64,000 nucleotides of DNA from Ulota crispa (Eukaryota; Streptophyta; Bryopsida; Orthotrichales; Orthotrichaceae): contig OY987242.1 in the NCBI GenBank assembly GCA_963920765.1, positions 19,182,002-19,246,001 of the forward strand, read 5' to 3'. Below, in pieces: positions 4,621 through 43,329 of this stretch (positions are counted from its first letter, which is position 1; the number at the start of each line of letters is the position of its first letter). The translations under genes and the position numbers were made by a program. The notes under the pieces are model-generated. The model did not search any database, was not told the DNA's origin, and saw only the letters and a program-made list of their open reading frames with translations.

Positions 4621-4999
4621 GGGTTGGGGGTACCTCAAGGTTTTAGAGCATTCTAGAAAAAACATCCTTATGGTTAGCCTTTCAACAAGGTATCACGGAA
4701 CATAATTTTTGGGGAAAAACATACTATAGATAATTTTATATTAAAGGGCAAAGTTGCAACTCATACGGTCTCTATTAGCAACTCTAGATTGCCCTTGAAA
4801 TTTCTTGGATGAGTTCCTATACATGTGCTAGACGATTCCAATTCCAACCCTCCCAAACTAGCTCCTAAGCTCACATGTGGTAAGATTTGCTTGTGCAAAT
4901 GGCATTCACTACTCCACTATGGGTTCAAAAGTGAGTGGTAAACACCTCAAGACTAGGGGTTGGCATTGGGTGACGCTCGGTGAACAATATGTTTACCTT

Positions 5000-5858
5000 A
5001 TATCAAAATAAAATTGGCGTCTTATTACTTTGCATCATTTACATTCTATTTTTACTACAAATCCCAATCTAGCATACCAAAGTTCAACTCCAAAAAACCA
5101 AACACCAATTTTTAGTGAATTATTTTGTATAACAACCATGATATTACAAGAAATGTGATTGAAAAATATTGGTGATGGAATTTTGAAATTGGACGAGAAA
5201 TCAGATTGCGTGGGTGTGTAGGAAACCTCCATGTGCACATTTTCCATGTTGAAAATCACCCCCTTAAGTAACAAAATTTTGATTTACAAAAATATCAATG
5301 CAACTTGTGATATGCACAAATTTTGTAAAACAAGCATTTCTTTGTAATCATCCAAATTTTTTGTGTAATTCATATACTATGACTAAGTTTGAACTTTTGA
5401 ACAAGATTTTATGTCTACTTAGTGAAAATCTAGTTAAAACATATAATTACTTGTTTTACAATATCACAAGTTGCATTGAATTTTTTGTAAAACAAGATTT
5501 TGTTACTGAAGGGGGTGATTTTTAGCATGGAAAATGTGCACATGGATGTTTCCTACACACCCATGCAATTCGATTTCTTGTCTGATTTCTCATCCAATTT
5601 CTTGTTTGATTTCTCATCCAATTTCTTGTTTGATTTCTCATCCAATTTCTCATCCAATTTCTCATCCAATTTCAAAATTCCATCACCAATATTTTTCAAT
5701 CACATTTTTTGTAATATCATGGTTGTTATACAAAATAATTCACTAAAAATTGGTGTTTGGTTTCTTGGAGTTGAATTTTGGTATGCTAGATTGGGATTGG
5801 TAGTAAAAATAGAATATAAATGATGCAAAGTAATAAGACACCAATTGTATTTTGATAT
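5000..5858. mobile_element. Foldback element, copy A
   Basis: Two long inverted arms (about 5000-5340 and about 5450-5858) pair around position 5429. The outermost paired sequence is ATATCAAAAT on the left against its complement on the right. The arms carry the family core, seen on the right as ATGGAAAATGTGCACATGG followed by a CCTACACACCCATGCAAT stretch. The mirror-image open frames (minus 5035-5274, plus 5500-5823) come from the palindrome and are not evidence of a protein. The right arm alone carries an expanded minisatellite (5571-5672). The arms read inward to a CCCCCTTAAGTAACAAAA-type sequence (C-type arm, see the elements at 36092 and 55187). Confidence 0.85.
5571..5672 (+). repeat. 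24/12-bp minisatellite inside one foldback arm
   Basis: Units built on GATTTCTCATCCAATTTC, alternating with a TTGTTT spacer, repeat about five to seven times. The matching position in the left arm (near 5190) has a single unit. The expansion therefore arose after the hairpin formed and makes the right arm about 84 bp longer. Confidence 0.85.
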
Positions 5859-7038
5859 ATGCTATATTATGTGATTGGAAAAGAATGGAAAAGAGGATGG
5901 CAACAATTTTTATTGGGGATTGTGTAATAGCAAAAATGAAGTATATGTAAGCTCTCTTATAGTATTCAAAGAAGTTTGCATAAGAAAGAATATAATTGGC
6001 ATATTATGGGTGAGTGTACACTAGAAGTATACCAATATTGGCAAAAGTTGATTGTACAAAAACATAAAGGTAATACAAATTTGTATTATTTTGTACTTCT
6101 GTCCTCTTTTTTAGGGGCTGAGAACATGTAGATTCCTGTCGTGCCGTTCTAGAAGGTGTATATGGATTGACCAATGGAATGCAAGTACATTGTCAAAAAT
6201 TTTAAAACGTGGCGTTTGTTGATCTGGCTCATTCCAGATTTGGTAGCCACAACTTGCACTGCTGTATTTTTGGGCCCCTTCCTTAGGCTTTATAGAATTG
6301 TTTTTGAAATTTAAGTAATGGATACAATGACCCCTTCCTGCCCTCCCTGTTCTCATTATTTATTACAAATATCATCTAATGTGTAGCATTGGGAATTAGT
6401 GAATTGAGCAAAACCTTAGTATGTTTTCAATTATCAACATTCTTTTAGATAAAACTTGAATGAAATGTTGTTTACATTGCATATATGTACAAAATAGAAG
6501 ACAAGTTTAGAAGGAAACAATAGTAGGTGGTACACATATTGTAGCTATGTTTACAAGTCTTTGGGATAATAAAATATAAATTGCATAAGTAACATTGGAT
6601 ACATCATAAAACATTATTGTTGTTTCTTTTAATAATCTATGAGGTTTTTGTAAGTATAAGTTTAAAGGGAGATTGAAATATAATAAAATATACTTATACC
6701 AACACTTTGTTAAATAAAAATTAATGCAAAGGAAAGTTAATGTTACCTTAGGGCTTGCAAGTAAGCTTACCATGAAGGTATTTGAATTCTAGGGTCTTAG
6801 GACATTTGGGATGTTCTTTAGTAATTTAAGGAAATATGCGTTCTCGAGATCAAATGACTTTGCAAGAATGATTGGGAATTTGCTATCACAAATCATGTGG
6901 AATTATAATTCCAATGTCTCTCTTTTTTGTAATTATGGCCTCAAAGGCATTTACTTCTACAAAAATTCAATTTTATGACATTTCTATTGCTACAATGAAT
7001 ATACTAACAGAAATTGGAATGTGTCATCATTTTTTAAG

Positions 7039-7063
7039 CATGTTAGGGTTTAGGGTTTAGGGT
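7039..7063 (+). repeat. Short interstitial telomere-type repeat (TTTAGGG)
   Basis: About three tandem TTAGGGT units occur in an otherwise AT-rich stretch. TTTAGGG is the usual plant telomere unit. Single or double units also occur near 8130 and 57670. Three copies is compatible with chance or an old repair scar. Confidence 0.6.
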
Positions 7064-8651
7064 TGGTTAAAAAAAACTTCTTTCATACTTGTTTTAAAAA
7101 AAAATTATTATTTGTGTTTATAAGTTATTATGTAAGTTTATAAATTTCATATTCATGTTACTTTCATGGATCCACAAAAGATCAATCAATTATTGTTAGC
7201 ATCAACTAATGTTATGGTATCTCATTAAGCACAGAAGTTGCAAATTGTATTTATTGAAATACCACAGAATATTTGATCAAGAAACACCTTTGAAATCCAA
7301 AATTCTATTTAATGAAAAAATATCTAAGAATTTGTGTAATGCATATAGTTTTATTAACTTCACAATTTTGGTTTTGGGTTACCATTTATTTCCTTTTTAA
7401 ATTAAGAATGTGAAGTTTGTTTCCTAAATTTATGTATATAGATGACTAATTTCAAGTAAATTCATTCTTATTTACAATTTTAAAATGATGGCAATTATAA
7501 ATTTACAAGCCTACTTGGAATTTTTATTTTCTAAGCCATAATTAGAAGTATCACTCCCTAAAAATTTCCTATTTATCTTAAGAAATTTAAACTTATAATA
7601 AAACTCATTATATTTATTATATTAAAAAAATCAATTGTAACCATAGTCATTTAATTCTAACACAACATTATTGATAATGTAGTTTAGAAACCATCCAGTC
7701 TAATCCCTTGAGTGTGCAAAATGTTCTTGAAAGAATTGTGTAATATTTAATAGTATTTAAAGCCTAGATTTTTTTTTCATGAATACATGTCGTTGGACTT
7801 GCCTTGTCAATGACTATACCATGGAAAAAAAGGAATTTGAAATATGTACAAATTGTTGGGCAATTCATGAGCATGGAATATGACATGTAATTATTATAAA
7901 GATTCTTCAAAACTCAAATTGATAGTTAAATATCACAATTTTCCAATTCAGTTGATTCTTACACATTGAAGTATTACAAGATTTAATGCAATTATTTAAA
8001 CTCCCGTATCTTACAACCAATTGGATTTGTTTAAAATCAAATACACTTGCACATTTTGGGTTTAAGTAATACACTAGAGAAGTTAAACATTTCAGATCCT
8101 CTTTTGAAAATGAAAGAAACTTAGGAGTTTAGAGTTTAGGGTTATATCAATTAAATGGGGGTTCTTAGGGTACACTCATTATAATAAATGTTTACATGGG
8201 TCTTAGAAGAAATAATAAATTATCAATTCATCATTGAAATTAATAGAGAACGTGCAATAATCATTTTCAAGAATTTGACAAACTATGTACGTTTGTAGAG
8301 TGACTTATAAAATATGAAAACATGTACTGTAAGGTTTTAATTGTTATGAAAAGTTTTGTTAGTAATATGTAGAGATTGGTGAAAGCCTATTATTCAATTC
8401 CACAAAATATTTTTCATTTTTGATATGTGGAGAAGATATAATTGTATCCAAATTCTTTGACCCTTTAAATTCCATTGAATTTTGAAGACACAATTTCTTT
8501 ATTCAAAATGTTAATGTTCACTTCATGCAAAATTGAGTTTTACAATTAATGTGAATGCTACTTTTCATTAAATTTTTTAATTTTCATGTGTTTACTAGAT
8601 GGCGGTTTTCATTAAATCAACACATCTCTTTATAGAAATTGTTTAATGTGA

Positions 8652-8736
<85 letters not shown>
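8652..8736. repeat. (TA)n microsatellite
   Basis: An essentially pure TA dinucleotide tract of about 85 bp with one TATGTA interruption near its start. Confidence 0.97.
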
Positions 8737-8741
<5 letters not shown>

Positions 8742-9530
8742 AATATTCAAGCTTTCATACTAACATTATAATTGTGCATAAAACATCTATCATCATTCAA
8801 TGTATGAATGTGTCCATTCTTTACCATAATTTTTTCAATTACTTTCAATGTAATTTAATGAATCACTAAAATATATGATTGTTAAAACATGATATGCATG
8901 GTTTAGGATTGTTATACACACACATATAATTTGCTAAAAGATTAATTCTACTAGTTTAGTCTATTTCTCAAAATTGTATAAAAATATTTATCATCACAAC
9001 TTTTTTGGATGTCATACACATTAATACTTTGTACATACTAATATGGCTTAATTCTTGAAGCATCAATGATGATTTGAAAAAAGAATTATATGAAAACAAA
9101 ATCAATTGCATTTGGAGGTTGACTACTATTTTATGTTTACTATAAATTATTGTGGAGTCATAATTCTATCAATATTGTTGGAATAAAGGTAATCAACAAA
9201 CCAAAAAATATATATTGGCCCCTTCAATATTTGCAAGTTAACTTTGAACATCCATTCCTTTATTTAAAAGTTTGTGTTCCATTTGGATTTGGAAATTCAC
9301 TTACAACTAAAAACATATAAATGTTCATGCAAATAAACTAGGAGGCACTGATCGACATTATAATAAAATGATGAGTATTAACTACAGTTGGTAAGTAGTA
9401 CCAACCACATGTGACCACATTAAAAATATGTTTCAATGTCATGTGAGTATTGTACAAGCAACAAGACATATGATTTAAAGGAAATCCGTCATTCCATTTC
9501 ATACGTTCCCTTTCCGATGAACACACGGAA

Positions 9531-9630
9531 TCGGTGATTGCTAGTATTCCTTAGCCCTTACCACGTTGCTGACTAGTGACCGCCGGTATCCCTTAGCCTT
9601 TACCACGTTGGTGACCGGTGATTGCCGGTG
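9531..9630 (+). repeat. Tandem duplication of about 47 bp
   Basis: Two adjacent imperfect copies share the block CCTTAGCC(C/T)TTACCACGTTG followed by GTGAC-type sequence. It lies in a GC-richer segment that may be the first untranslated exon of the gene starting at about 9.5 kb. Confidence 0.7.
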
Positions 9631-12191
9631 AGAATATGGCTCCGACTACCAAGCCTCCGATTGCCGTCTTGCACCTATTTGGCGCAAAGTAGTTTCGAAC
9701 TTTTTTTTGAATTCTCAGGTTTCCTTTGTTTCTTTGTAGAGATAAGCTCGTCAATGCTTGAGGAAGGCTCTCTGTTTGCGCAAAGTGCTTTTGTGATCTG
9801 CTCTGTCGTTGCAGGTACGAGAAGTGTTTTCTAATGCTCTAAAGCCAAGAAGTTTGAATGTAGTAAACAAATAAAGCTCATTCTAGTTAGGTCTTGTTTA
9901 AAGTTAGAGATTGCAGTGGGCTGGACTTGGTGCCAATTAGAAGACATTACCTATTATTGTTAGAAGTTCCAAAGACATCATTTTGTGTAGGGTTTTGTTT
10001 GTGGCATTTGGTTTGTGCTTTATTTTCTTCCAATTTCTATTAATGTCTAGAAATTTGGTGCAAGTGAGTCAGCCAAGTTTGTCATTTTTTTTTAGGGTCA
10101 GACCAATCTGCAGTAAGCTCACAAAAATCAGCTTACCTATTGCATTAATATTTTGGCAGCTTTTGAAGCAAATGTTGTAGTTTTGCACATCAAGAGATTG
10201 ATAAAGCAGTATTATACTTTACAAAACGCACATGTAATTCATTTTTTGTAGTTTTACTTGGGATCTTTTGTTGTTTTTGCCATTCTGCTTTTGGATTATG
10301 TACTATGTTGTGTATGTATTTAGATTCAAGATTTGGATTAATGGAGAAATCCGCGGAAACCCTATTGGGGAAGGGCAATCTAGAGAAGGGGAAGATGAGT
10401 GCGCTAAAATCCAAAAGTAGTGGACGGAAGGAGAGGGGGGGTGCCAAAAAAATTCTAGACTACACAAAAACTGGAAGGGTCAGCAGTGGACAGCAGAGGG
10501 GAGTAGCCCCTAGAGGCAACGACAACGATAACAGATCTAAGCATAAAGGAGGGCCGGCCCTTCCAGGCATTGACAACCAAGACCTGAGACAGCAAGAAGG
10601 GAACACCCTAGCAAGAGTCGATGATGGTGAACACAACGACAAAGAAGGAGATCATGGAGAGGGGGAACAACAATCTAGCCGGAGGAGATTTGAGTCAAAG
10701 AGTAAGAAGTTCAAGGTGTATAAAACAACAGAAGACATGGACTTGGAGATTGCCAACCTGAAGCCACCGCCAAGGCTGCTGACTTGCAAGGACTTTGCGA
10801 GTGAATATGCGCTCTACAATGGATGAGGAACTAACCTTCATTAGTATCAAAAACGTTCTGTTGCAACAAAGGTGGTGAGGAAGTGTTTTGGAGAACCCAC
10901 AGGCAAAGGTGGGCAAAATAGATTCTACTGGAAACAGTGTGAGTATCCCAACATTAGGGAGAGAATCAAACATCTGCACCCTATCATGTATCAACACGCT
11001 GTGAACGAGGTGCCTTTGTTGTTGAAGATGCATTTTGCGGAGGAGGTGGCAATAGAGTTTGAGAAGGGAACTAGTGATATAAACTGGTGCTTGTTTGGAG
11101 AGGAAACAAACAAGCGCTAGCGTAACCGATATGATCAAGACCTCCAGAAGCTAGAATCATTGAAGGGATCTTTACAGTGCTCTAAAAAACCGGCGGACTT
11201 GCGGGGGAAGGACCGGAGGTCCATAAAGTTGGAGCAAGGTGTCAAATTGGAAGGAGGTGGAGGTAGTAGAATGGGATACACCGTTGACAGGGTACTTGCT
11301 TTGTCACATTCAAAGCATGGAGAGACTGGGGGAGAATTGGGGGTGTCTGTAGATTTGGAGAGTTATCACAACAAGCTGGAAATGCCTCCAAAGGTGTTTC
11401 ACCTGAGTTGCAGATGGAGGTAGAATCAGTGATGGCGGTGGTGCACATGGAAGGGGAGGTTTTGAAAATCCAACAAACTGAGGCAAAATCTGATCTGGAG
11501 AAATTCAACTTGAGGAGGAGAGACAAAGAGTGTTTGGTAGGTACCTTCCTAGGGCAAATGGAAATAAAAACAAAGCTCATTGCAGCTATGCTGAAATGTG
11601 AGGCGGCTATGGAGCGAGAGTTGATCAAATCAGAGATGCTCCAGGAGCAGCTCCAATCTGAAGAACAACAACTCAAGGAAGCCATATTATAGGTAGAAGG
11701 GGCAGAGATTGCCATGGCTACTTTGGCTCAGAAGATCAAATGCCATAGACTGGAATTCAATGGATTGGGACTCCAGTCAAGGTCAATGAAGAAAGGCAAT
11801 CTAGGTGCTTCATATATTCCAAAGCCCATGGTGTATGCCACTCTAGAAGAAAAGAGTGTACAATTCACAAGCTCTAGCGTGGACCATGATTTTCTTCAGG
11901 CTAAAGTCTACTCTCTCTGTTCATTCTCCTTTCCTCATTATGATATAATTGTATCATCTTGTAGGCATCTATACCATCCATTTTGTGCTTCCATTGTGTT
12001 TGCTAGTAGTAAGAGGTGCATGGCTATGGGATGCAATTCTATGCCGTATCTTGAGTGGCACCGGAGTTATGGATGGGGGGAGCCTAGTACGGAACTAGTA
12101 GAGAAAGCTTTGACATTTGGATTAGCTGAGGAGCGGAAGAAGATACTCCAAGAGCACTTGGATTCAGCAAAGGGTAAATGCCCACTTGCAG

Positions 12192-13250
12192 GTAAATCAT
12201 TCATTGTTTTTACAAATTTCAATGCTCATAGACAACACAACTTTGTATTGTATTTTGATTTTTTTAAGTATCCATGATAAATGGTCAACTTAACATAGCA
12301 TTTTTATGAAAAATCCAATTAGGTTTTCTGATTTTCATGTCTTCTGCACCATAGAGTTTGTGTAGTAAAAGTTAACTTACACAATTATCTATGTTTGTGC
12401 GTGCATTGATTATGAGTGTGTAGATTGGATTGTTATAAACTTATTCATATGTTGTTTGAAATTGTTTGTATTTTGTACGTAGTGTACAACAAGTAGTTTG
12501 AGTTAACATGGTTAGGGTCAAGGTATGTTTTTGTATTATGTTAGCTCTTTTTTCGAACTAAACATACTTAATGGTTTTTTTATAATGTATTATAAGAATT
12601 TGTACTAATAGAATATTTAGTACACCTTTAGCACTTTAGAGTTGTTACTAACTACTTCATTGTATCAAAATGTACGTAGATTAATGTTAATTATAATCAA
12701 CACAATACATTCATACAAGCACTTGGTAATTGTATTATTTAAGTCTAGTACAAATTTTATCAATCCCATTCTATGTTATGAAAAAAAGTATTTGTTGTAC
12801 ATATGTATTGTAATAAAGTACATTTCATGTACATTCCCATCTTGTATAGTACTGTTTCAATTGCAATGACAAATACTATATATAAAATTTTGCAATTTAC
12901 ATAAGTAGATGTTACATTAGTACTAAAAGTACATTGAAAGATTAGGTAATATTAATTGTACTTTGCATACTGTGACTGAAAGTATAAAAATGTATTCATT
13001 TTGGAAAGTTTTTATACTTTTTTGTACTTTGAGTACTAATAACTACTTGTCTGCTTTTTTTAGTCAATAGTCTTTAATATAAATCACAAATCAAAACAAA
13101 AAAAGTATAGCTATTGTACTTTTTTTACAATGTATGGTTAGTTACTAAAGTTGTTTTTAATAGTTTATACCCTTAATTCTAACATACTAGTTATTTTATT
13201 GGGAATTCTTCTTCATAACTACCACTATACTCTTATGGTTTTGATTAGGA
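12192..13250 (+). other. Probable GTAC-rich intron of the 9.5-14.8 kb gene
   Basis: Bounded by a good donor (GCAG before GTAAAT) and an acceptor-like TTGATTAG before GAGTTCAG. The tetramer GTAC occurs about fourteen times within 12600-13150, against about two expected by chance. The same enrichment recurs at 16.0-17.0, 19.0-19.7 and 22.1-22.45 kb. I see no independent gene inside. Confidence 0.5.
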
Positions 13251-14828
13251 GTTCAGGTTAAGCTAATACATGTGAAGAAGTTGGTTGTGTGCAGTTGCAG
13301 TTGCTGGATAGAAGTTTGCCCTTCCAAATTTTCCCACAAATTTCACGGAGGGAGAAACTAGCCATGCTATTTCCTCACCAAAGGCTATGCGTTGGAGAGG
13401 TGCCGGATTGTCTAAAGTGACAGAAGAAGATCAGGATCCAGAAGAAGTGACAAACCTCAAGGATTCAAAGAAGAGAGACTCAACTGTAGTTCAGAGTCCT
13501 GCTTCAAAGTTGAATGCAATGAGGAAGAAAAAAAAGGCTCAAAGGGCTACCCACAGGAATGACAATGAGGAAGAGGCAAATTTTACTTCAAAGTCAAAGT
13601 CAAGCAATGATGGGCTCACACAAAAGGTGTTGAACCTGCCTTCTACTTTCAAGACATCTGTTTCTAATTTTGATGGTGGAAATAAAAGCATTGAGGGGGG
13701 GCATAGGTGATATGCAACTAGATGAAGAAAAAAGGGAATTCCAAGTATGCAAATGTCCACTCTATACTATTCATATCCAATACTTACCAATTTTGTTTAA
13801 ACTGCTGAATTCAAACTAAATTTGTGGACCGAGTGATGATCAGACATTTTAAGAGGAGGCTCTTACACTAATTTCAAGCAGAGGTATTTGCAATTTCACC
13901 TGCAACAACAAACTGCCATTACATGAGCATGCAAGAGACGAGTTCAAAGTATTTCATGAAGGGCTTGTTTTGGGGATGTCTATAAGCGTTGGAAAAGTAG
14001 CTAACAAAGTGCTTATTAGGGGTGTAGGGACTAATGTTTGCAAGGGGGCAGACATCCAAGAATTGACACTAGAAGCAAGCATGTTGCTTCAACTTCCACA
14101 ATCACCTGTTAAGGTTAGAATGGATGAGCCTTCATGCGGACAAGATAGCAAGGCAAAGTATGAGGGGTCTCTTGCAAACGACAATGTCAGTGGAGAGGTA
14201 TCTCCTCCAGAGGGAAATCCAATTGGAGAGGTACATGTCTCAGAGAGGAGGGATTCTGATGAAGGGGGTGGTCAAGAGGTGAGGGATGCTGACCTTGATT
14301 TCACTAGTGAAAGAAAGGGTGAAGGTTACGATTGTGTTGGAGAGGGTGGAGTTGCTACTGAGGTTTGAGGATTTAAGGTTATTTTTTGGATTGGTCAGCT
14401 TGCACAATCAAAGGGAGGAAAGCAGACATTGGAGGAAGAGGCACCAATGGTATGGACCTCCAGAAATTCCAAAAACAAAGAGAAGAAAGAGGGGAAGAAA
14501 AAGCACAACCACTTGGTTGACAACGACAAGGACCCACCAGCACTAGAGAACCTCATTACTGCAAGGCGTAGTACCTTCACCAAATTGAGCGATGCAGTGT
14601 TTGATGTTGTACATGAGGGTGCTAAGGCAGTGGCAACAACAAAGGTTCCTACCCCAATTTTTTCTCCCCCTAGTAGGAGAACAACAAGGTCCCAGCAAGG
14701 GAATTTGTCACTATCTACACAAGTAGACAGAGCTTCATCAAAGAGGCATAGATGATCTTAGCAATTTTACTATTTTTTTCCATTCTTAGCTTTGGTCATA
14801 GTAGTAACTTGAATCTGCAATTGGTTAG

Positions 14829-14856
14829 TTTTTTTTTTTTTTTTTTTTTTTTTTTT
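14829..14856 (+). repeat. Poly-T tract
   Basis: About 28 consecutive T just after the presumed end of the 9.5-14.76 kb gene. A short inverted pair built on CCCAGTAAAA and TTTTACTGGG follows (about 14898 and about 14960). Confidence 0.9.
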
Positions 14857-15063
14857 CTATCAAGAGTATTCATTACTCTCGTTGAGGTTGTTAGTATGTA
14901 GCCCAGTAAAATTTGTACGTTGCCTTGTATTTGAGGTTACTGAAACAGAGACTTTGTTTTACTGGGCAGACATGTTGTTTAATGTTTTTTACATTCTAAT
15001 GTGGTTTTACTAATCTGGTTTGCTTGTTTGTGTTTTAGTTAGGCTACATACTATGTTGAGGAC

Positions 15064-15990
15064 TTGTCTAGAGGTTTGGAGGCAATTTTGATACTAGCAG
15101 CTCCACATGTTTCACTAATGGCGCATTTCAATTATATAACCAGTAGTGTGGTCCATAACAAGGCTACTATACATAATTCTATTGTTGGATTAGGGAATGG
15201 GGAGTTCTGTTCATGTGACAAGGGAGATTTTTTAAATGCAATAGTACCTTGTAATTGTACAAGGGCAACTAGAGGTGAGTTTGCATACAATCCTAATGGG
15301 TTGTTGAAGAACAACTTTTTGCATAGTAGTAGTGGCCAAGGTAAGACTTTCATTACGGAGTGTAATTTGAAGTGTCATTGCCACATTTAATGTGGCAATT
15401 GTGTGGTTCAATAGGGGATGAAGTACTTAATAGAGGTCAACCGTACAAAGCATACTGGATGGGGGATTTGAGCTAGTGAGTCTATTCCTAAAGGTGCGTT
15501 TGTATTTGAGATGAATGGAGAGGTATTGACTAATGAAGAGATGTTAATTAGAAACCTTGTAGTGCATGACGGTCCATCATATAGTTTGCAGCTAGATGCA
15601 AATTGGGCCACTGAAATGAAATTGAACGACAACACAATGTCGTGCTTGGATGCTACTCACTATGGCAATGTTGCTAGATTCTTGAATTGCAGGTTTGAAA
15701 CCTTTGCATCCCCTTTTGAATGTTATATATATTTATTTATGCATATGAGTTTCTAATTGGCAGTGCAATATTGTTGGGCAGATGTGGAGATGCAAACCTT
15801 GTTGACATGCCTGTGACGATTGAAAACACCAGAAAAAATATTTACCATGAGGCATTTTTCACAAAAAAAGTTATTCAACCTAAGGAGTGGCTGACATGGA
15901 ATTATGGTATTGATTTCAACCATAAAGACTAGCAGCTTCCATCATTTTCTTGTAAGTGTGGTAATATACTATGTAGAGACAAGAATTTCT
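15064..15990 (+). pseudogene. SUVR-like histone-lysine methyltransferase (pre-SET, SET, post-SET), decayed
   Basis: One reading frame from 15064 gives a Cys-rich pre-SET module (CSCDKG, IVPCNCTRATRGEFAYNPNG, ECNLKCHC, CGNCVVQ), then the SET core (GWGI, IPKGAFVFEMNGEVLTNEEM, LDAN, CLDATHYGNVARFLNC). An 89-bp intron (about 15693-15781, GT..AG) restores the frame into CGDANLVDMPV, HEAFFT and LTWNYGIDF. A post-SET CKCGNILCRDK follows at about 15950. Order and motifs match plant SUVR1/2/4-type H3K9 methyltransferases. In-frame stops lie at 15388-15390 (TAA), 15412-15414 (TAG), 15469-15471 (TGA) and 15930-15932 (TAG). By family comparison they replace Gln or Arg codons or sit before post-SET. The AdoMet-binding Asn-His pair reads Asn-Cys, and the ELTxDY motif reads WLTWNY. 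The gene is dead. No WIYLD domain was seen. Confidence 0.85.
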
Positions 15991-15992
15991 AA

Positions 15993-17160
15993 TACTATTT
16001 AATACTGCAAATGAACTGATTGTTTTGCAATATCATATGCATATTAAAGTACAATATGTTAAATACCACATGTACTAAACTTTGCATCATAACAAATTTT
16101 TGTTAGGATTTGTTTAGAAACTTTCAAGTAGATTTCTCTTCAACCTTAAAACCAATAAAATAATTCCATAAGGATATAATCCAAGTTGGAATACAACATC
16201 TGACTAAAACTAGAGCACTTAATAGGATACATCAAATTGTAACATTACTATTCTACCTAAACGTTGTCCAACTCATTCATAAGACCTATGGGATGGCTAT
16301 TTAAAAGGCGAAATTAAGAAGACCCTAATCTAGCAGCAATGGATATGGTGTTAAGGGTTATATCAAGTGAAAACAAGCAAAATCTACATAAGCCTATAAC
16401 AATTGATGGATATTGTAATATCTTCTGTTCCAATTTTGGCAGGATAGTTTTTATCCATTATATAATTGTTTTTTGTTATATTTGAATGTAATTAAACTCT
16501 ATCTTTGCATATGGGTCAATATATCTAACTTGATTTCTTTTATAATTACATAAGTGCCACCATACGTGCATATATAAAAAATATCCTATACTCATTTACC
16601 AATGACTTACATATAGCAAAATTTGACCTTCACAAATATACACAGAATTATATGTCAAAACAAAGAGTAAGCCCAAGTAAAAGTTTCAATGGGAACAAGC
16701 AAGTCCATCACTAGACTATGATGGGAGTCAGAGATAAAGATAAGTATTCTACTATAAATTAAATAAAGTCTAGCCACCTGCATTGTGCTACTACTAGCCC
16801 AAAGAACATGAACGTTATGATATTGACATGTTGCATAATTTCTACTTTCAATATGAAAAAGTACTATAACAATAGTACAAAAAATCGCTTATAGTACCTA
16901 CTGATACTAGCAAATACATAATGGGATCACTTCTACTTCAAGTATGTAAAAATATTGTAACAATAGTACACAAAACTCACTTATAGTATTTATCGATATT
17001 AGCAAATACAAAATGGTGTTTGACCAGTAGACTATAAATCCTAGTCATTATTAAACGCCCACCATTCTCTTAGTGCCTCCTCACACATCTGTTGGGATTT
17101 TGAAGAGAGATTATAAACCTCTGTTCCCTTGACCCTGTGCAAAGCAAGTGTCATTGGAAA
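15993..17160. other. Spacer between converging genes, GTAC-rich
   Basis: Lies between the 3' ends of the SET pseudogene (+) and the transposase pseudogene (-). No open frame of interest. Repeated short motifs such as ATAGTACA and AAAGTACAA give it the same composition as the introns on either side. Confidence 0.45.
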
Positions 17161-20100
17161 CTTACACGTTCAAACTAGATGGTCATCTATATGAGCATCT
17201 ACGGCTTTGTTACAAAAAACATATGTCAAATCTAAGCGTCCATACTTCTTGTAGTATTTGCCTTGTATTACAGAATCCCCTACCATAAAATTCCCTCCCC
17301 ATAGACATGCCAAAGGCTCAGTCAAAACAAACTTTGATCTCTGGCATTGGAGAACATAGAACAAAACGCCGTCTTTGTTGTCTTCCTCTGCTTGTACCAT
17401 AAAATTGTCGCCCACATCTACCATGTCCCCAATCTCCATCGACGTGTCATCATGCAGCCAATGATTCGCTTCCTCTAGCTCCTCTGCTAGATCTGCAACC
17501 GCATTGGCATTGACTAGTACTAGCCTCTGAACTTGCCACTCTTGCACGTGGCTCTACCTCTCACAATTGGCCCAGTCTCAATCTACACAAGAAATACAAA
17601 AACAACTCAAATCACATGTCTTCAGAATAGTAGGGTCCGTTAGCAAAAATCCCATTATCAAATACAAACTCTTGGAATCTGCAATTGTATTGCATCTCAA
17701 ACTACTGTCGGTGTGGTTCACCTCCTCCTTGGCAATGTGCCAAAAAACCCTAGACAGAGCAGAAATGTTAGTATCAAAATATGAACTAACAACTCTATGT
17801 TAACACTTCTCATCCAAGAAGTTCACAACTTGTCGTGCATTTTGCAATGGGCGCAATGGATTTTGAACTTGCTCAGCTGATAGCGCCCTCTTCACTACAG
17901 CGCCAGCTCCATCCCACTCCCCTTTACTATGTGTTGACTCAAAATAGTTCTAACGCATTAAATAGCCCCTAGTCAACATGGGGTATCTAGCCACAAAGTA
18001 CATGGCAATGGCACATTTGAATTGTGCACTACAGCCATCACTAAATACCCAGTGCTCTTTAGCAGTAAATCTAGAATCTATGACCCAATTCCAATGCAAC
18101 AGCAAGCAATGTTGAACAAAAGCAAAATCATGTTCTTTATCATCTAAAATATAAAAATGAGTTTGCTTTAACATTTCATTTCCTTCCCTCCACATGGTAA
18201 TATGAACTAGAATAGTTATTGAAGTGGTAAAATAATACATGCTTTGAACCTTGTTTTGGATTGCAAAGGAGTAGTTCTTAGCATAATCTATGTGAGATAC
18301 CAATACCCCTTCAAGAATGTTAGCCATCATGAGCTTACATTGCTTGTCTTGCCGCCTAGCTTTAAAATTGTGCTTAATGAACGTGGTAACTGTCTTCTCC
18401 ATATAAGACATAAATACCTATGTAGAAGTCTCTTTAAAAGCTTCTTTTAAATGTTTTTTGGCCTTGCCCGTCTGAGCATTGACTCCTATTTGGTAATACT
18501 CAAAGCATTTCCATTTCAAGTTAAACAAAGAAGAGCTACACACTTCCAAGTCACAAAACGTTAATAAATGGAAATTGCAATCATTGCAATTACCCTTGAG
18601 ACATTCCAGCCTATGCCAAGAATCATATTCCCCCTTTTGACACACGCATGATTTCCACAACAACGTTATTCTCTTGAAAATATTATGATAGGCTTGACAT
18701 CCTTCTTCACCATTGCCCAAACATATGACACATTTGCACACACAATCTGTGGAAGCATGGAGACCCGTAATTTTGTCTCTTAAATTAATTAGAGCATTTT
18801 TCATGAAGTCCATTTCTATGTGATAAATGCAACAACACGTATTTCTATCTTTCAACTTCCTTATCCACCACGGCTTAAGCCATTCAAATGCTCTTTGCCG
18901 AATACTGCACTCCAGATGTGCCTCTCTGAAATGTAAATAAAAGCTAGTCTGCCAGACAGAGCACCAAATATAATGGAACACTGTTAAAAACTAATAGTAA
19001 TATACAAGTAGTCTTGTATAATTTGAAAGAACTTGTACAACTTGTACAACTTGTACTAGTTTCAGTATGTGCTCACCAAATTGTATTAGATGTACCTTTT
19101 TGTACTAGGAAGTATACAATCTAGCTAAATCCTAAACAACAATTGAACCACCGCAGTATAGAAAGTATCAACAACATTTATTTATATCTAATTGTACTTG
19201 CCATAATGTAGTTAATGTACTAACTGATTTCCAAGAACTCATAAGCACTTTCTGAGTGGAAGTGTAAAGATACTGAAATTGTACTAGTAAGACATTGAGA
19301 ACTACAATAGTACAATTAGTATCAAAACTTTTATATTACAACTAATGTTATTATTGAGCTCTATAGTTGGTACTACATAGAAATATTTAAAATATATTTT
19401 GGTACACAACTAATGATATTTTTTTGCTATAGTTTTTCTATCTGTATTAACTTGTAAAGAAAGAGTCACTGTGTATCAAACACAGTACCTATTAGTACAA
19501 AAAGAGCAATGGGACTATTGACAATTTTAAACCAATAAATTGAGCTATTTGAGCTGTTACTATAACCAGTTGTATTTATTGAAATCTATTAATTGTAGTA
19601 AACTGCAAACAAAAAATCCAATGTCTACTTTATTTGCTGAAGTGAGTACAAATGTAAATTTTCTTAACCACAACGTTTCAACTGTCATTTTATTGTACCA
19701 TACATAGTATATAAACAAACCAGATTAGTCTAGTTTTGTACAAGCGTGTTTGTTGATTTGTAATCTTAAATTTTTTGTATTTCCATGCATAGTAGTGATA
19801 TCACAACTAAGGTACAATTACTTCTTATGAACATGATGTTGTTTATATTCATTACTCTTGAGCAAAAATAAGGAAGACACTGAAATAAGTGCAAGAACAA
19901 GAAAAACAAAAATGAAAACTTATTGAGTCTCACAAAGATTTTCCTACGTCCATTTATATTGGTGATATTACATCTGAAGTATAATTACTTTGTATGAACA
20001 TAATCTTGTTTATATGCATTACTCTAGATAAAAAATAAAGCACCAAAACAAGTGCAAGAACAAGAAAAACAAAGTCGAATTTTACTTGAGTCTCACAAAG

Positions 20101-21319
20101 ATAATGAGTAGGATGAGGCTTGTCCCATTGTAGATGCCCTATTCAATGCCTAATAATGTCTTTCTTGTTTGGTGAAACATTTGTCTATCCATTCCACCAA
20201 GCTAGAACACAGTTTTTTGCATATTCTGATAAACTTTTTTGCTTCAGTTGTTGCAATCGCAACCTAGGCACGATATCTTCATTGTCTTGTGCGGACACCC
20301 TTCTTGTCAAAATGTGGGTTTATACTTCGACGTGTTGTATCCAAAACACGTGACAATGGTCTCACGGCTTCCGTCCCTAAACTCATGGCAGCATCTTGTA
20401 ACGCACTATTCCTTGCTAAGAACTCATTAGAATTGGCTTGTTTCACTAATTGTAATTCATACTTATAATTTTGGAAAAAAGTGTGAATCACCTTTGCTTC
20501 CTGTAGCCTAGGGTAGCATATAGGAAGCAGAGGTGCAACAACATCACAACCAAAAAAGCTCTCCATAACGTCCCTTTTACTATAGGGACCTGGACAGCTT
20601 TCTAGTTTGTCTACAAAAACATGCGCTAAGTGTGCGGATATGCGACGGACCTCCCTCTTTGATAAGTGGTCAGTACAATTGCAATCTTCAGGCCTAACAT
20701 TCATAGGCACAGGTTCATCAAAAATCTCCTTGTCACAAGCTCTTTGACGGGCTTTCCTCACCCTAGCATTCTCTTTGACAGCGACTAAAAGCTTCCTCAT
20801 GAATGGAAGCTTGGGCAATTCTATCAACAAGACCTAAATGAGGAATCCCGTGCCTTACATGTTTTCTATTAGCAGCGTTACCCATTACACATACTTTGAT
20901 TTCAAAATAAAAGAAACAATTACAACCAACCGTTAACACTACCTTTAGAGGGAACTAAAGCATAACTAAATGTTTAGTAGTAGTTCTAGATAAACCAAGT
21001 AAAACTCAAGTTAGGACAACAAGGTTTTTTGTAAATTCTATAGCACGACAAACTCACAACTATCGGCAATAGAACTTCCAATGTTTGATCTATATAGGTG
21101 GTTGCAATCGATACTACAATAACCACTCTTGAATAGTGCACGTCTAGGAGGAGACTCTACTTTGTCGTTGCAGCGGCCCCTATAAAAATCACTGTTGCTT
21201 TGTTTGGATATAGGAGTCTCACACACGTACCCAAAATCGCTGCTACTCACAAAGCACACTGACCCTAACTGACCACTCGACACACAAATCGAGGTAGAGA
21301 CAACCATTTTAGTTGACAA
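17161..21319 (-). pseudogene. DDE-type DNA transposase, decayed, multi-exon
   Basis: Minus-strand pieces read in order. 21319-21038 may be an N-terminal exon. 20880-20279 carries a charged region (KARQRACDKEIFDE), and a frame change lies between its start and the longer open part. Near 20130 there is a VSPNKKDIIRH segment. 18981-17950 is one frame broken by a TAG near 18418: it has a Cys-rich zinc-binding-like part (NTCCCIYHIEMDF, CVCKCVICLGN), then DYAKNYSFAIQNKVQS, DDKEHDFAFVQHC and FSDGCSAQFK. After another frame change comes HSKGEWDGAGAVVKRAL (17940-17820). A C-terminal VGDNFMVQAEEDN tail follows (17547-17170). The two Asp motifs plus the HxKGxxDGAG motif fit an RNase H-fold transposase of a family I remember as abundant in seedless plants but cannot name with certainty. 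An internal GTAC-rich stretch (19.0-20.1 kb) looks intronic. Confidence 0.7.
18990..20115 (-). other. Probable intron of the transposase, GTAC-rich
   Basis: Runs such as TTGTACAACTTGTACAAC and many TTGTACTA copies occur at 19020-19330. No coding content on either strand. It separates the VSPNKKD segment from the zinc-binding-like exon, where a coding join would be expected. Confidence 0.4.
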
Positions 21320-22450
21320 GAAATAAGTGGTGATTAGTTTCTAGACCAAATTAGAGGAAACCGTAGGCAATGACATCCTTCAAACTCAATTGAACACAAT
21401 TAGCACACTTCAGAACTAATAAGCAGTGGTATTCAAGAATTCCTTTGCTGGGACCTTCAAAATAACTTCTTCACAGTGAAGTTTGAAAGGCAAATTTCTC
21501 AAAAACTGAGTGACTAAGCATAGTAATGCACCATAAGAAAGCTTAGATACTTAGAGATCAACCCTGAAAACAAACAAGCTAGGTCAAAATAGACGTTGGA
21601 ATGGAGTTTTTGATCCTTGGGAGTTGACGTTGCAAAGGAGTTTTTGTTCCTAGCAAGTTTACGTTGCTAGGGAAGTAATGTTGCAAGAGAGACAATAACT
21701 ACTCCAAAAAACAACATGCATCCGCGAGGGTGACAAAAATTGAAATCTTGGCGCATTGGCAAAACAAGGAAGCATGCATGATAGATTTGTCAACCATGCA
21801 GATGGAACCCTGTGCGGGGATAGATGAGGGCCACGTGGGCGCTAAGATTAGTTCTTGGCGAGACTCTAAAAAAGGAGATATCTTGAAACAAGCCAACGCC
21901 ATTAAATAACGGATCTTCTAGAAGTACTACAGTTGTACTATTGAAGGATTTGTACGCATAAATTGCAACCTTTACCCAAAACATATTTATGCTAAAAAAT
22001 GAGGTTTTAGTAAATACAACTAGAAGCCATTCTAGGGGTTGCAACAACCGTGTAAATTTTGAAGAAAACTTTAAAAAAAATTATTCTCTAAAAGTTATGC
22101 CATATCAAAAAAATCAGTACAAATTTGTACTTCCTTGCTCAATACAAGAGTTGTTTTTAAATTTGGCTATAGATATGAGTAGATCAGCCTCTAATAACTT
22201 TGCTAAACTAAAAGCAAAACAAAATGGATTCTCTAAGGCGGAAAAAAAAAGTACTTCTCTTGAATTTAAAGTACTGTGACATTTCAATACTATTGATGAA
22301 AAGTACAAAATTAACCGTCTGTGAGATTTGTTTTAGGTCTTTCATTAATCATCCTATGTACTTAAGACTTCTAAGCAACCCTTTCATGAAATAAAACCCT
22401 TAAAAAATTGCTTAAACTAGCAATGAATTAAAGTACAAAAACAGGTATAT
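21320..22450. other. Upstream flank of the transposase, with a tandem repeat of about 34 bp
   Basis: At 21592-21672 two and a half imperfect copies of GACGTTG-AA-GGAGTTTTTG occur in tandem. The 22090-22450 part again has several GTAC motifs, and GTAC density drops just beyond, at the foldback starting near 22521. The frames here (plus 21989-22279, minus 21790-22047) have no recognisable content. This may be the 5' end of the large element; no terminal inverted repeat was found. Confidence 0.35.
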
Positions 22451-22520
22451 GGCCATTTTTGCATTGTAACACCCAAATTGGTATACCTCTAGTGCACACT
22501 TATCCTTATTCTCATAATAT

Positions 22521-23205
22521 TGGTATTTGATTCTTATGCAATTCTAATCATGTATATCAAATTTTAGATACAAAAATCCAAAATTTTATTATTGGTGAAT
22601 TATTTTAAATTAAATTCATGGTTTTACATGATAATTGTTCAAAAAAATTTGGTGACTAAATTTTGAGATTTGATTGCATGGATATGTAGGAAAAATCCAT
22701 ATGCACATCTTCTTTCATCTTCAAAAACTTTCAAAATTTCTTCTACAAGGATTTTTTGTTGTGGTGATCTTGATCAAAATTTGGTATAATAGATGTCTTT
22801 ATATTACAATTTGCTTTTGGCAAAGTAAACATATTATCATGCTTAAAGATATAAATGTAATAAAAATGCATCAGTCAAATAGCAAAATCTAATTATCATA
22901 AAGAAATATATATTTTACAAAATTTGATCATATTTCAAGCCATAATGATACCTTTGAAGATCAACTTTTTATCACTTAAGTGGGGTTCTTTTAGCATGGA
23001 AAATGTGCTTATGGTATTTCCTACAAATCCATGCAGTTAAATCTCAAAAACTCATCATCAAAAATTTTCAATCAATTTGTAAAAAAAATATTTTGGCATA
23101 AAAAAATTTACCAAAATTTGGATTTTGGTTTTTGGGGGTTCAATTTTGATATGCTTGATTGGGATTGGGGGTAAGAATTAAACATAAAAATTGCAAGAAA
23201 CACCA
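22521..23205. mobile_element. Foldback element, copy B (apparent mosaic)
   Basis: The left arm (about 22521-22735) and right arm (about 22970-23205) form an imperfect hairpin containing the family core (GATTTGATTGCATGGATATG on the left; ATGGAAAATGTGC on the right). The inner end of the left arm (CACATCTTCTTTCATCTTC) resembles the D-type arms at 37252 and 56099. The inner end of the right arm (CTTAAGTGGGGTTC) resembles the C-type arms at 36092, 55187 and 5000. The two arms are less alike than in the other copies. Confidence 0.7.
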
Positions 23206-27379: not shown

Positions 27380-27562
27380 AATGAAAGTGAATGGTCAATT
27401 CCATACCACTGTAGGATTTTAAATAATAAAAAAAACCCAAAGCAAAAATAAATAATTGATGCAATCATTATATTAGAAGGGAAGACCTGAAGATTTTAGA
27501 AGGAAGAGGATGAACCCAACTAATATTGGAAAAAAATTGGTTTGCTCTTGTAAGAGGAGGAA

Positions 27563-28001
27563 TATGAAGCATTAAAAAGGAGGATTGATATGTGCACACC
27601 GGGGGGTTGATATTTGCACACCCCCTTGGGAGATAAATTACAGATTTCTACCATCAAAAAGCTGAATTTGAGAATTTTGAATTTAGATTGGATTTAGAGA
27701 CAATGGTTTACTCTAGAAAAGTTGCAATTAAACAACACTTAGTGAAAAAGCTTAAGTAGGGGAAAAACTGTTACTTTTACTTTTGTTTGTAAAAAAAGAT
27801 AAGCTTTTTCATTAGGTGTTGTTCAATTGCAGTTTTTTGTATGGTTCTAGAGTAAACCATGGTCTCTAAGTCTAAATATGAATTCAAATTTCTCAAATTC
27901 AGATTTTTGATGATAGAAATGTACAATTTACCTTCCAGGGGGGTGTGCAAATATCAACCCTTGATGTGCACATATCAATTCCCTTTAAAAAATGCTTCAT
28001 A
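27563..28001. mobile_element. Foldback of the GATATGTGCACACC family
   Basis: Near-continuous arms pair from TATGAAGCATT (27563) to AATGCTTCATA (28001). Inside are TTGATATGTGCACA, TTGATATTTGCACACCCCC and GGTTTACTCTAGAA on the left and their complements on the right, closing near an AAGCTTTTTC loop. This is the reference copy for relatives at 25640-26040 and about 60770-61050. No coding content. Confidence 0.82.
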
Positions 28002-28099
28002 CATAAGTCTCAACCATCTATGAAGATAGAAGGCCACAAAGGTAACTTGGACAAGTCCAATGGTGAAAAATGAATTGCAATTAACTGTATTTAGCTGAA

Positions 28100-29135
28100 C
28101 TGGCTTCCCTTCGGAGCCTCCCGGCTCTGCTAAACTTGGTTTCACGGACCAGAACCGGAGTTTTGATTGGCCATGCGTGAGGGGATTGTTTTTCAATGGA
28201 ATGCGCCCAAAAGTCCGGCCCAGAGCTCCGATGAGGCCAATGGAAACTGACTCTAAGCCTCATGTGCATGGGCCTAATCTCACAATCTCGCCGGACTTGT
28301 TGCAGAGAACAAATTTTGCTCTAGAAGCAATGGCGTCCATCTCCATGGCCACTGCCATCGCCCCCGCCGAGCTTGTAGCGGCACTGTCCCACGACGTGAG
28401 CTCCAAAAGCGCGCTCTTGGGCTCTCACGCCTCCATATTTGTGGCCTTGTGGGCACGGACTGTATGCTCCGCTGCGTCTCCATCCGTCGACAAAACCACT
28501 GCGGTCTAGACCGCAAATAGGGTTTGCCATTGCACTAGCGCTGGCCGCCATTGTGGGCTCAAGCGACTTTGTGGTGCTGGAAGCGCGCGTTGATGTGGCA
28601 AGGCTGACCCTGTGCAAGGAGAGCAAGGGCTTTGCGAAGCGGGAGAAGCAAGAGATCAAGAAGCTAGAGAGTAGGTTGAAGCTGTACACACCCGGTAGCG
28701 CCCCGTCATTGGCAATCAACACCACCATTGAGAAAACGAGGCGGCGGTTTGCGTTCTACGGCAAGAAAGGGCTGTTGTGCAGGACTGATGGGCTTCCGCA
28801 TTTGATTGTGGATAGGGGCCAAGCGCATTTGGGCAAATTTGTCCTCCTGGATGTGGTGTTCCTTTACATCATTGGCTGGATTGGATAGGTGGGTAGGGCG
28901 TACTCGATCAAGGTCAAAAACTCCAAGAAGTCCACCAAGAAGGAGATCATCATTGATGTGCCCCTTACGCTTGGGATCATGTCCAAGGGCTTGACTTGGC
29001 CCGTGTCTGCCCTTGGCGAGCTCCAAAATGGCAAGCTCATGGAGAAGAACAGCAATATCACAGTCTCTCCCCAATAAATTGCTGTATGATTCCCTTGTGA
29101 CATTGCTTTTTCTTGATTGGTGTAATAAACTCAAC
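28100..29135 (+). pseudogene. psaF: psaF pseudogene (photosystem I reaction centre subunit III)
   Basis: PsaF is the nuclear-encoded, plastid-imported photosystem I subunit that docks plastocyanin on the lumen side. An ATG at 28330 opens a Ser/Ala-rich transit-peptide-like stretch in one frame. A shift near 28505 moves to the frame with [20 protein letters not shown] (thylakoid-type signal) and the mature part: [76 protein letters not shown], ending ITVSPQ at 29077. TAG at 28886-28888 replaces the Trp of GWIGWVGR (TGG to TAG). Several conserved residues differ from known PsaF (for example CKES preceded by LTL rather than LTP). No intron is visible in the coding part and no poly-A tail follows. 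Promoter-like GC-rich sequence with CCAAT-type boxes precedes it, so a DNA-level duplicate of an intronless gene is as likely as a retrocopy. Confidence 0.92.
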
Positions 29136-30450
29136 CCTTCATTTGTACACTTTTTTTTGTGTATTTTGTACTTTGCATATGCTTAGAAGCATTGATATTT
29201 GTTACTGAGAGTTCACTAGATTTTATATTTTGTTGCAATTGTGGGATATGTTACTTGAATTGGTAGACAATTTTAGAATCAGATTTAAGGTGATTTGGTA
29301 ATACACTCTCAGTTTACTAATTCTATTTATTAGAGTGGCATGAATCTTCATTTTCTTAAATTGATTTGAAAAAAAGGTTTTTACTTTGTGCCTAGCAAAG
29401 TAATGCGAAAGAGTTGTCTTGAATGTGTCTATCACATTCTCACGCTAGGTTCAAATTGTGTCAACATGTGCATACTAGGGCATATTTCTCTGCAGCCAGT
29501 TAATGTGCATATGAAGTGGATGTTGTGCATGCCTGATTGAGAAGGTAGTGCATAGGCGCAAATATTTTGGTATTATAATTTTGTATCCTTGATCACATTT
29601 GCATTGTGATGTTCCTTGCTTTTGTGCTCCTTTGTTTTCTGAAGGGAAAAGAGTCTGAACTTACAAGCTTGAATTAATGGATCTTGCACTAACTGAAGCA
29701 AATCATAAGGATGATGCTAAAGGTTAAGTCACTCCAGATAGAGTTTATTGCCTTAACTGCTGACTTTAGTGTACTAGCTTTTTAAACTATGGATATTTGG
29801 ATAGTTTTCTAAGACCTTGAAATGTACAACCATGGTACTGTGTGCTAAGTTTTAGGTTCATTGTCATGGACTTGTGTGAGTGTTCAAACCTCCCTCTCAA
29901 GAAGTAAGCGCAAGCACAACCGAGTTCTAACAAAACTAAGAAATGAGCTATAATAGCAAGAGGGTGGGTTTGGTTGTAGATTTCCGACTAAAGATGCCTT
30001 CCAAGCAATGGATCTTTACTAACAAGACTACAATATACAATGATGAGCAAAGGAATGGAATAATTTCATTAGTACGCCAAATGTGGCTAAGCGAGGGAGG
30101 GACATGAGTGATCATACCTCATCATGAGGTCCGGCGTACCCCATAGCTTGGTCGTGTTAGGCCTCCATTCTTTTGTGAGGGTGGATGAGGTGGTGTAAGC
30201 CGAAGAGGGGTGAGTTCTATTCTAAGGACAAATAATCACAACATATTAGTGGGCGGATGACACCAATATCTACTAATGGACCCGGTTACGTCATGTGGTT
30301 ATGACAAATAATCACAATGTTGCATACGTATCTAGGAGGGCGTTAGGGCCCCCCTTAGTCCCCTTTTATGCGCACAATGGAATCCATAGTGAAACTAATT
30401 GGCCTTTGGTCTCTTTGGTGGACTAACTATGACGGCTTGTTTTGTCACAC
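29136..30450. other. Non-coding interval
   Basis: No motif-bearing frame. AT-rich up to about 29870, then mixed composition. Nothing further identified. Confidence 0.4.
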
Positions 30451-30829
30451 CTTTCCTATGATGCGGGTGGACTAACCCAAGATATGAGCAATGTATGAAT
30501 CCAATTAACAATTGGATACTTGAAGTTAGGCCAAAAATAATTAAGTGGCGCTAGTTTCTCTTTAAATGATTTGTCCCTTTTTGTTAATACAATTGGCAAA
30601 AATTCACCTGGCTGAGGCTGCCTGGCAGCTTTGGACTTTGAGGTCAGAGGCAAGTCGGAGGGCGCTGACCGCGGTCTAGCGAGCTGGGGTCTGGCAAGCT
30701 GGGTTTGGCAAGCCAAGGACCGGCAAGACTTGTGGGTCAAGGGGACCGGCGGTTGGGGCAGCGGGTTTTGGGTATCGAGCGCTGGTGTTGCGGCCATTGC
30801 AAGGCGCGCGACGCGAGCTCGGAGACAAG

Positions 30830-31150
30830 GTTGACGTGAGTTGGGTGGATAGGGAACTGACGTGAGCTCGGAGACAGGATCAACGTGAACTTGGAGGCAG
30901 GATTGATGAGAGCTTGGTAGACAGGAGTTGACGTGAGCTTGGTGAACTTGGGTGACAAAAAAATTGGCTTGTGAGCTTGGAGACAGGGATCGATGTGACC
31001 TCAGAGATAGGGGCTGACAGGGGCTTGTAGACACGGAATTGACGTGAGTTGGTGAGCTCGGGTGACACGGAATTTCGCTCGTGAGCTTGGGGAATGGCTT
31101 GTGAGCTTGGTAGACAGGGGACAGACGTGGGCTTGTAGACACAGAACTGA
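30830..31150 (+). repeat. Degenerate tandem array, unit about 24-30 bp
   Basis: Repeated imperfect units built on GACGTGAGCTTGGAGACAGG. The minus-strand 228-residue frame (30456-31142) is Ser/Pro/His low complexity created by the array and is not called as a gene. Confidence 0.8.
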
Positions 31151-31164
31151 CGTGAGCTGATGAG

Positions 31165-31465
31165 CTTGGGTGACTGAGAGTGACTAGCTATCAGATTGAG
31201 AGATTGAGAGTAAATTGGCTATTAGCTCAAGAGACTAAGGGTGAATGACTGGAAGCTCAAGAGATTGAGGGTGAACTGGCTGTAAGCTCAAAGAGATTGA
31301 GAGTGATCTGGCTATGAATTCAAGAGACTGAGAGTACTCTAGTTATGAGCTCAAGAGACTGAGGGTGACTGACTGGAAGCTTAAGAGACTGAGAGTGATC
31401 TTGCTATGAGCCCGAAAGACTGAGGATGAACTGGCTGTAAACTCAAGAGACTGAGAGTGACAGTT
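31165..31465 (+). repeat. Second tandem array, unit about 31 bp
   Basis: About nine units of the pattern CTCAAGAGACTGAGAGTGA with a CTGGCTATGAG spacer, period 30-32 bp (unit starts near 31231, 31261, 31293, 31324, 31354, 31385, 31415, 31446). It directly follows the first array but has a different unit. Confidence 0.88.
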
Positions 31466-35051: not shown

Positions 35052-35126
35052 TTAACCCCTAAAGGACCAAGCCTTTTTTTCTGTGAAAATCACTGAAATC
35101 TACCACTTCTAGGAGGTTTAGTAAAA

Positions 35127-35855: not shown

Positions 35856-36091
35856 AAAGAGGGATTTTATGTTTTGTTTTTGGGAAATCCAACCATAGGA
35901 TCTTGCCCTAGACTAGAAGAGGTACTTGTGGGAAAAAAATCAGGTCATTCTATATGGAGAGGAGGGAGATATTTACATCTGAAGTGAAAAAAAAAGGTTT
36001 TTTTCCGTGCTGTACAAAAAATTCAAAAGCCTTTGACCACTCTTACATGAAAAAAATTGGTCTACACAAAGTTGAGGTTTACTTTTTGCAT

Positions 36092-40484: not shown

Positions 40485-40492
40485 GCGTCATT

Positions 40493-41118: not shown

Positions 41119-41126
41119 GCGTCATT

Positions 41127-42600: not shown

Positions 42601-42640
42601 CTTTCTTTAGATCTTACCACTTTTTCTCTGGCTTTGTACC

Positions 42641-42650
42641 TATAAAAAGG
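42641..42650 (+). promoter_or_regulatory. TATA box of the cysteine-rich peptide gene
   Basis: TATAAAAAGG lies 140 bp before the ATG. A transcription start near 42670-42680 would leave a leader of about 105 bases. The spacing and strong consensus support a functional promoter. Confidence 0.65.
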
Positions 42651-42780
42651 GTACCACTTCGATGCCGTCCTCACCAAGGTCTCCACCTCTTGTGCATGTG
42701 CTTAGTAGCTCGATCGACTCTGCATTCCATCTCGTATCGACTACTAAGGGATACTTTTTTGAAGCATCTAGCAAGCTGCG

Positions 42781-43319: not shown

Positions 43320-43329
43320 ATATGCTCTT

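Follow-up and report, generated by a model that had tools for sequence, protein, structure and literature searches.

The window analysed here is a stretch of 64,000 nucleotides of Ulota crispa (GenBank assembly GCA_963920765.1, contig OY987242.1, positions 19,182,002 to 19,246,001 of the forward strand), and all positions below are counted from its first letter. Three decayed genes stand together in it: gene A, whose product has a Cys/His cluster, and a SET methyltransferase gene, both on the plus strand, followed by a converging gene on the minus strand that we take, from its motifs, to encode a DDE-type transposase. An earlier note on this DNA had described the same genes in the same order and orientation, which open reading frames (ORFs), stop codons and domain matches confirmed, and had raised the possibility that they moved as one unit. 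That proposal is supported: the stretch 6008-22505 is one insertion of 16,498 bp, and gene A, the SET gene and the transposase gene all lie within it, since it is bounded by terminal inverted repeats and an exact target duplication and has an empty counterpart elsewhere in the window.

Ends and target site of the insertion

The two 29-base terminal repeats (GGGTGAGTGTACACTAGAAGTATACCAAT vs GGATAAGTGTGCACTAGAGGTATACCAAT) agree at 25 of 29 bases when one is compared with the reverse complement of the other, all four differences being transitions; among 369 random pairs of 60-base pieces the best agreement was 19/29. The 24-base core at 6013-6036 recurs inverted at 22477-22500 with 22 of 24 bases identical, the runner-up site in the window reaching 17/24. 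With two variable bases left open and up to 3 mismatches allowed, this core was found at 2 sites only in the window and gave 0 chance matches in 100 shuffles. The ends of the element read GGGTG.. and GGATA.., and the left repeat contains TGTACA. The earlier note had found no terminal repeats and had given the span as 9500..22450, both of which have to be corrected: the repeats exist, the true start is 3.5 kb further to the left and the end is at 22505. A left end sought at 8.7-10.3 kb yielded nothing above shuffled sequence, and no additional copy bounded by these repeats (up to 3 mismatches) was present within the 64-kb window.

Directly outside both repeats stands TTAT, an exact 4-base duplication (6004-6007 and 22506-22509), and beyond it the sequences 5912-6003 and 22510-23182 are two parts of one palindromic repeat. 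When the flanks were joined with one TTAT, they matched both arms of a palindrome at 56 kb (56964-56668 and 56134-56387) as single stretches spanning the junction, free of gap columns in the 12 bases to either side of it for both arms. Three more matches (37315, 36159 and 37181) also span the junction, but they reach only 17-20 bases leftward, and the 37-kb and 36-kb copies aligned separately have 1-2 gap columns near it. At 56 kb the window thus offers an empty site in a paralogous repeat, as distinct from the orthologous locus.

The window holds a dense family of such palindromes of ~0.4-0.95 kb, near-perfect to imperfect (up to 95.8% self-complementary), several of which are interrelated; its members lie at 4999-5859, 27563-28001, 36092-36755, 37249-38119, 53803-54707, 55187-56122 and 56099-56957. 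The insertion target, 5912-6007 with 22510-23182, is an interrupted member of this family.

The three genes

The SET gene had been described with pre-SET, SET and post-SET modules, a reading with which both Pfam matches and an alignment to EHMT1 agree. Single ORFs matched Pre-SET (PF05033, E 2.2e-11, above the cut-off; 15043-15390) and SET (PF00856, E 2.7e-6; 15472-15756). The translation of the whole gene, 286 residues with X at stops and the exons joined over the intron, covered the SET profile from 1 to 105 of 105 (E 1.3e-13) and matched Pre-SET with E 3.8e-11. Its best match in PDB was EHMT1 (E 1.5e-26), over residues 6-282 of 286 and including the post-SET cysteines, the alignment extending through FSCKCGNILCR after an in-frame TAG. 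SETMAR (7.8e-23) and the plant SUVH6 (2.9e-17) came lower, EHMT1/2 being the best relatives among the best 60 of 94 matched sequences.

The copy at this locus is dead, since four internal stops (TAA, TAG, TGA, TAG) interrupt its about 285 codons and its catalytic Asn-His has become Asn-Cys where exon 1 ends (LNCRC vs INHHC in EHMT1). WIYLD and SRA domains gave no match at E<=1 among the ORFs scanned upstream of it, a scan that short or lost exons could escape. By features typical of that group the gene may be SUVR-like; the grouping of the land-plant genes is given in PMC3063831. Neither a second SET copy nor a second transposase motif was seen in the window.

As had been claimed, the transposase gene has both Asp motifs and HSKGEWDGAGA, and all of them stand in one minus-strand frame: HIDYAKNYSF (18294-18265), FSDGCSAQFK (18045-18016) and HSKGEWDGAGA (17931-17899), in order and spaced by ~80 and ~40 residues. 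The main exon has 6 stops in 643 codons vs 28-55 in the other five frames, and 20279-20885 is probably the N-terminal exon of the gene. Predicted structures were too low in confidence to be of use (predicted local distance difference test, pLDDT, 35.5 and 36.2). No Pfam transposase family was matched by the transposase pieces at E<=1, the only matches being weak ones to MATH and coatomer families (E at least 0.085), and residues 1-395 had no PDB relative at E<=1. Pieces of the transposase, of gene A, of the pre-SET region and of a DUF7869 stretch (for the last, see below) brought up no relatives among viral contigs, nor did a transposase piece among prokaryote genome contigs.

Several superfamilies were considered but found no support. 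Kyakuja-Dileera-Zisupton had no KDZ/CxC Pfam match at E<=1, and Harbinger and MuDR had no Harbinger or MULE Pfam family at this threshold for the transposase pieces. IS3EU/GingerRoot elements have TA..TA ends and usually a 6-base duplication, instead of which we see GGGTG../GGATA.. and the 4-base TTAT; when the ends are read in the IS3EU manner as TATGG..CCTTA, the flanking 6-mers mismatch. Sola elements make 4-base target duplications, the size found here, and are a possible lead for the superfamily. Inside the candidate transposase intron, at 19782-20102, there are two copies of a ~155-bp direct repeat, 79% alike.

Gene A consists of open stretches at 10344-11120 (with stops inside), 11288-12190, 13312-13710, 13853-14368 and 14369-14755. 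Its first exon region has 3 stops in 260 codons (including the one that ends the stretch), a frame change and 1 stop in 301 codons. The Cys/His cluster gave weak RING-like Pfam matches (best E 0.049); the last three stretches had no Pfam match at E<=1, and PDB matches of gene A were discarded, as they lay mostly in translated intron. Upstream of the gene, a CpG-rich spot (9440-9700, 15 CpG in 200 bp) stands amid CpG-poor sequence, and a 42-bp tandem repeat occupies 9544-9629.

Outside the element, a 392-residue open stretch on the minus strand (45592-46770) matches DUF7869 (PF25273, E 2.5e-14) and appears to be a portion of a further transposon-type gene of another kind. Rfam and tRNA scans gave no matches.

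Table 1. Parts of the element and of its target repeat, in window coordinates; "word" is TAGTAC or AGTACAA on either strand.
Position	Strand	Feature	Remarks
5912..6007	.	Left piece of target palindromic repeat, ending in TTAT (6004-6007)	Matches 56964-56873; match runs on over the join to the right-hand piece
6008..6036	+	Left terminal inverted repeat, 29 bases	25/29; core a unique pair in window
6037..10343	.	Left non-coding part	Very AT-rich to ~9400, then CpG-rich spot and 42-bp tandem repeat before gene A
10344..12191	+	Gene A, first exon region, with basic N-terminal part, coiled-coil-like stretch and Cys/His cluster	Decayed; weak RING-like matches
12192..13248	+	Candidate gene A intron (GT..AG letters), word-rich	Splice letters
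13249..14757	+	Later part of gene A or separate gene, low-complexity open stretches	Without known domain
15043..15692	+	SET gene exon 1, pre-SET and most of SET	Stops TAA, TAG, TGA; Pfam and PDB matches
15693..15781	+	Predicted phase-2 GT-AG intron in SET domain, 89 bases	Splice letters; join yields SET/post-SET alignment
15782..15992	+	SET gene exon 2, SET end and post-SET Cys cluster	One internal TAG, final TAA
15993..17059	.	Spacer between convergent 3' ends of SET and transposase genes	Word mostly in 92-bp tandem repeat 16840-17016 adjoining transposase
17060..18990	-	Main exon of transposase gene; motifs HIDY (D), FSDG (D) and HSKGEWDGAGA	6 stops, no frame change
18991..20278	-	Candidate transposase intron, word-rich	(AACTTGTAC)x3 at 19030-19056
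20279..20885	-	Likely N-terminal transposase exon, start MGNAANRK..., one frame change	ORFs 20279-20833 and 20763-20954; join read by eye
20886..22476	.	Right non-coding part with word	34-bp tandem repeat 21592-21667
22477..22505	-	Right terminal inverted repeat, 29 bases	4 transitions vs left
22506..23182	.	TTAT (22506-22509) and right piece of interrupted palindromic repeat	Self-BLAST, joined-flank alignment

A GTAC-centred word in non-coding parts

The earlier note had also ascribed to the three genes a shared unusual composition. This does not hold for G+C content and GC skew, which follow the coding strand, and a shared G+C or CpG level was dropped as proof of unity; what is shared is a GTAC-centred word in some of the non-coding parts. 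We counted TAGTAC or AGTACAA on either strand, overlapping matches being counted once, against 200 dinucleotide shuffles. The gene A intron has 9 word sites vs 1.86 in shuffled sequence (0/200) and the transposase intron 9 vs 1.84 (0/200), with GTAC itself at 16 vs 5.6 and 17 vs 5.7 respectively (both 0/200); moreover, GTAC is independently the most enriched 4-mer in each of both introns. The spacer 15993-17059 has 6 word sites vs 0.92 (0/200), and the right part of the element, 20886-22505, has 6 vs 1.22 (0/200) and GTAC at 11 vs 4.7 (0/200). Exon pieces have 1 word site each. GTAC is mildly high at the left end (6008-7000: 6 vs 2.4, 4/200).

Altogether 37 word sites fall in the 16.5 kb inside the element vs 28 in the 47.4 kb outside, and the 30 highest WGTACW counts among 628 overlapping 1.2-kb windows all belong to windows starting at 11.7-21.9 kb. 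Tandem repeats hold the word at 16840-17016 and 19030-19056; most copies are dispersed. A word-rich stretch at 27501-45000, outside the element, possibly holds remnants of related elements.

A probable transposon carrying a SET gene

We consider it probable, at roughly 0.7, that the locus is a single dead 16,498-bp DNA transposon carrying an H3K9-type SET gene between its ends. Such a transposon would have inserted into the palindromic repeat, duplicating TTAT, and would have encoded a DDE-type transposase on the minus strand and gene A, an accessory Cys/His-cluster protein, on the plus strand; between these two it would have carried a methyltransferase gene probably derived from a host, already aboard when the element inserted. 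The SET and transposase genes have decayed to a similar degree, with 4 internal stops in ~285 SET codons and 6 in 643 transposase codons.

A number of observations weigh against this interpretation. CpG depletion is unequal, 0.25 in the SET gene vs 0.39 in the transposase gene, and the transposase is identified only through its motifs. In the left part of the element the word shows no enrichment (0 sites in 7000-9400 and 1 in 9400-10340), nor does it beside the SET gene (0 in 14758-15042 and 2 in 15999-16820), and in the spacer GTAC falls outside the top eight 4-mers. Outside the element the word is enriched too, at 27501-36000 (8 vs 2.69, 1/200) and at 36001-45000 (9 vs 3.67, 2/200), and GTAC is high at 36001-45000 (32 vs 19.4, 0/200) and at 54001-64000 (43 vs 20.8, 0/200), a stretch in which the extended word shows no enrichment (6 vs 4.71). 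Because the word is uneven inside and enriched outside as well, it supports the element without defining it; the element is defined by its ends.

The uneven word and CpG values bear on the possibility that the SET gene entered this copy after the element had inserted, by a nested insertion or a duplication, so that the transposon itself never carried it. Immediately beside the SET gene the word is absent, though the neighbouring parts have it, and CpG depletion is stronger in the SET gene than in the transposase gene, both as a late arrival would have it; nevertheless the two genes have decayed to a similar degree, DNA transposons bearing SET genes are known, and no ends were noticed around the SET gene alone, although no search was aimed at such ends. 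We regard this course of events as unlikely. It is less likely still that the SET gene was aboard as a passive passenger, a fragment of a host gene caught by the element and never serving it. The SET gene retains an intron, as expected if a host gene was copied at the DNA level, and the catalytic Asn-His is altered; yet Pre-SET, SET and post-SET are all present and in order, and the enzyme is of a type relevant to silencing. That there never was a unit, but only unrelated genes decaying next to one another, with terminal repeats and TTAT arising by chance, is very improbable: repeats are dense in the window and 4-base duplications are short, but chance would have to account for the 25/29 match against a maximum of 19 in the 369 controls, for the ungapped empty site and for a core that shuffled sequence never matched.

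If the locus is a dead SET-bearing transposon, its closest counterparts by gene content are found outside plants. HarbingerS and MuDR families of Phytophthora (oomycetes) carry SET genes according to PMC12730594, which cites 2014 Repbase reports of Kojima and Jurka. These families have in common with the present element a SET histone lysine methyltransferase gene placed beside the transposase gene in a DNA transposon. They differ in their host, ours being a plant, and in their transposases, that of our element matching neither the Harbinger nor the MULE family of Pfam at E<=1; its enzyme, a full pre-SET/SET/post-SET module, may be a further difference. Transposons carrying SET genes are thus already known from oomycetes, and the element described here differs from them in having a transposase without a Pfam family.

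Other known systems are similar in a single respect. DNA transposons carrying TET/JBP genes exist in fungi, as stated in PMC12730594; there too an enzyme acting on silencing marks was picked up, but both the enzyme and the transposase belong to other families. In SETMAR, according to PMC12062965, a SET enzyme is linked to a transposase within a single host fusion gene, whereas in the element SET and transposase are separate, convergent genes inside a transposon. No plant element of this make-up was found in the literature searched for SET or methyltransferase genes with transposons, which is weak evidence given that most subscription journals and Repbase Reports lie outside the literature covered.

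The distribution of the word has a parallel in the VANDAL transposons of Arabidopsis. The motifs to which their VANC proteins bind are short (YAGTATTAY; AGTTGTAC or AGTTGTCC) and lie in introns and in intergenic and terminal non-coding parts, often tandemly repeated; the proteins take silencing marks away (PMC5735166, PMC10398659). Both systems have a short word gathered in introns, a spacer and one end of a transposon with several genes, some of it tandemly repeated, and the words themselves resemble each other, YAGTATTAY and AGTTGTAC vs TAGTAC/AGTACAA. The element differs from VANDAL in that its transposase does not match MuDR, most of its word copies are dispersed and a SET gene is present; gene A pieces had no Pfam match to the VANC domain (DUF1985/DUF287).

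By analogy with VANC and VANDAL, the word copies may have been binding sites for one of the element's own proteins, of which the transposase or the gene A protein would be the likely reader, and the live element may have used the methyltransferase it carried on its own silencing chromatin or on that of its host. Taken to its full extent, this would be an element-borne, sequence-addressed chromatin system in which the element's own protein reads TAGTAC/AGTACAA and an enzyme of SUV39/SUVR type sets or blocks H3K9 methylation, a counterpart of VANC independently evolved in another superfamily. We put this forward as speculation, and think it rather doubtful. Within such a system an Asn-Cys form of the enzyme, possibly inactive, might instead have played this part as a dominant negative.

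The ways in which transposons evade or exploit the silencing imposed by their hosts have been worked out in few cases. A transposon of known ends that holds a histone methyltransferase of the silencing type between them, along with a dispersed non-coding word resembling VANC targets, represents a concrete family to seek, and with intact copies from elsewhere one could test whether silencing enzymes are carried by transposons for action on the transposon itself or on its host.

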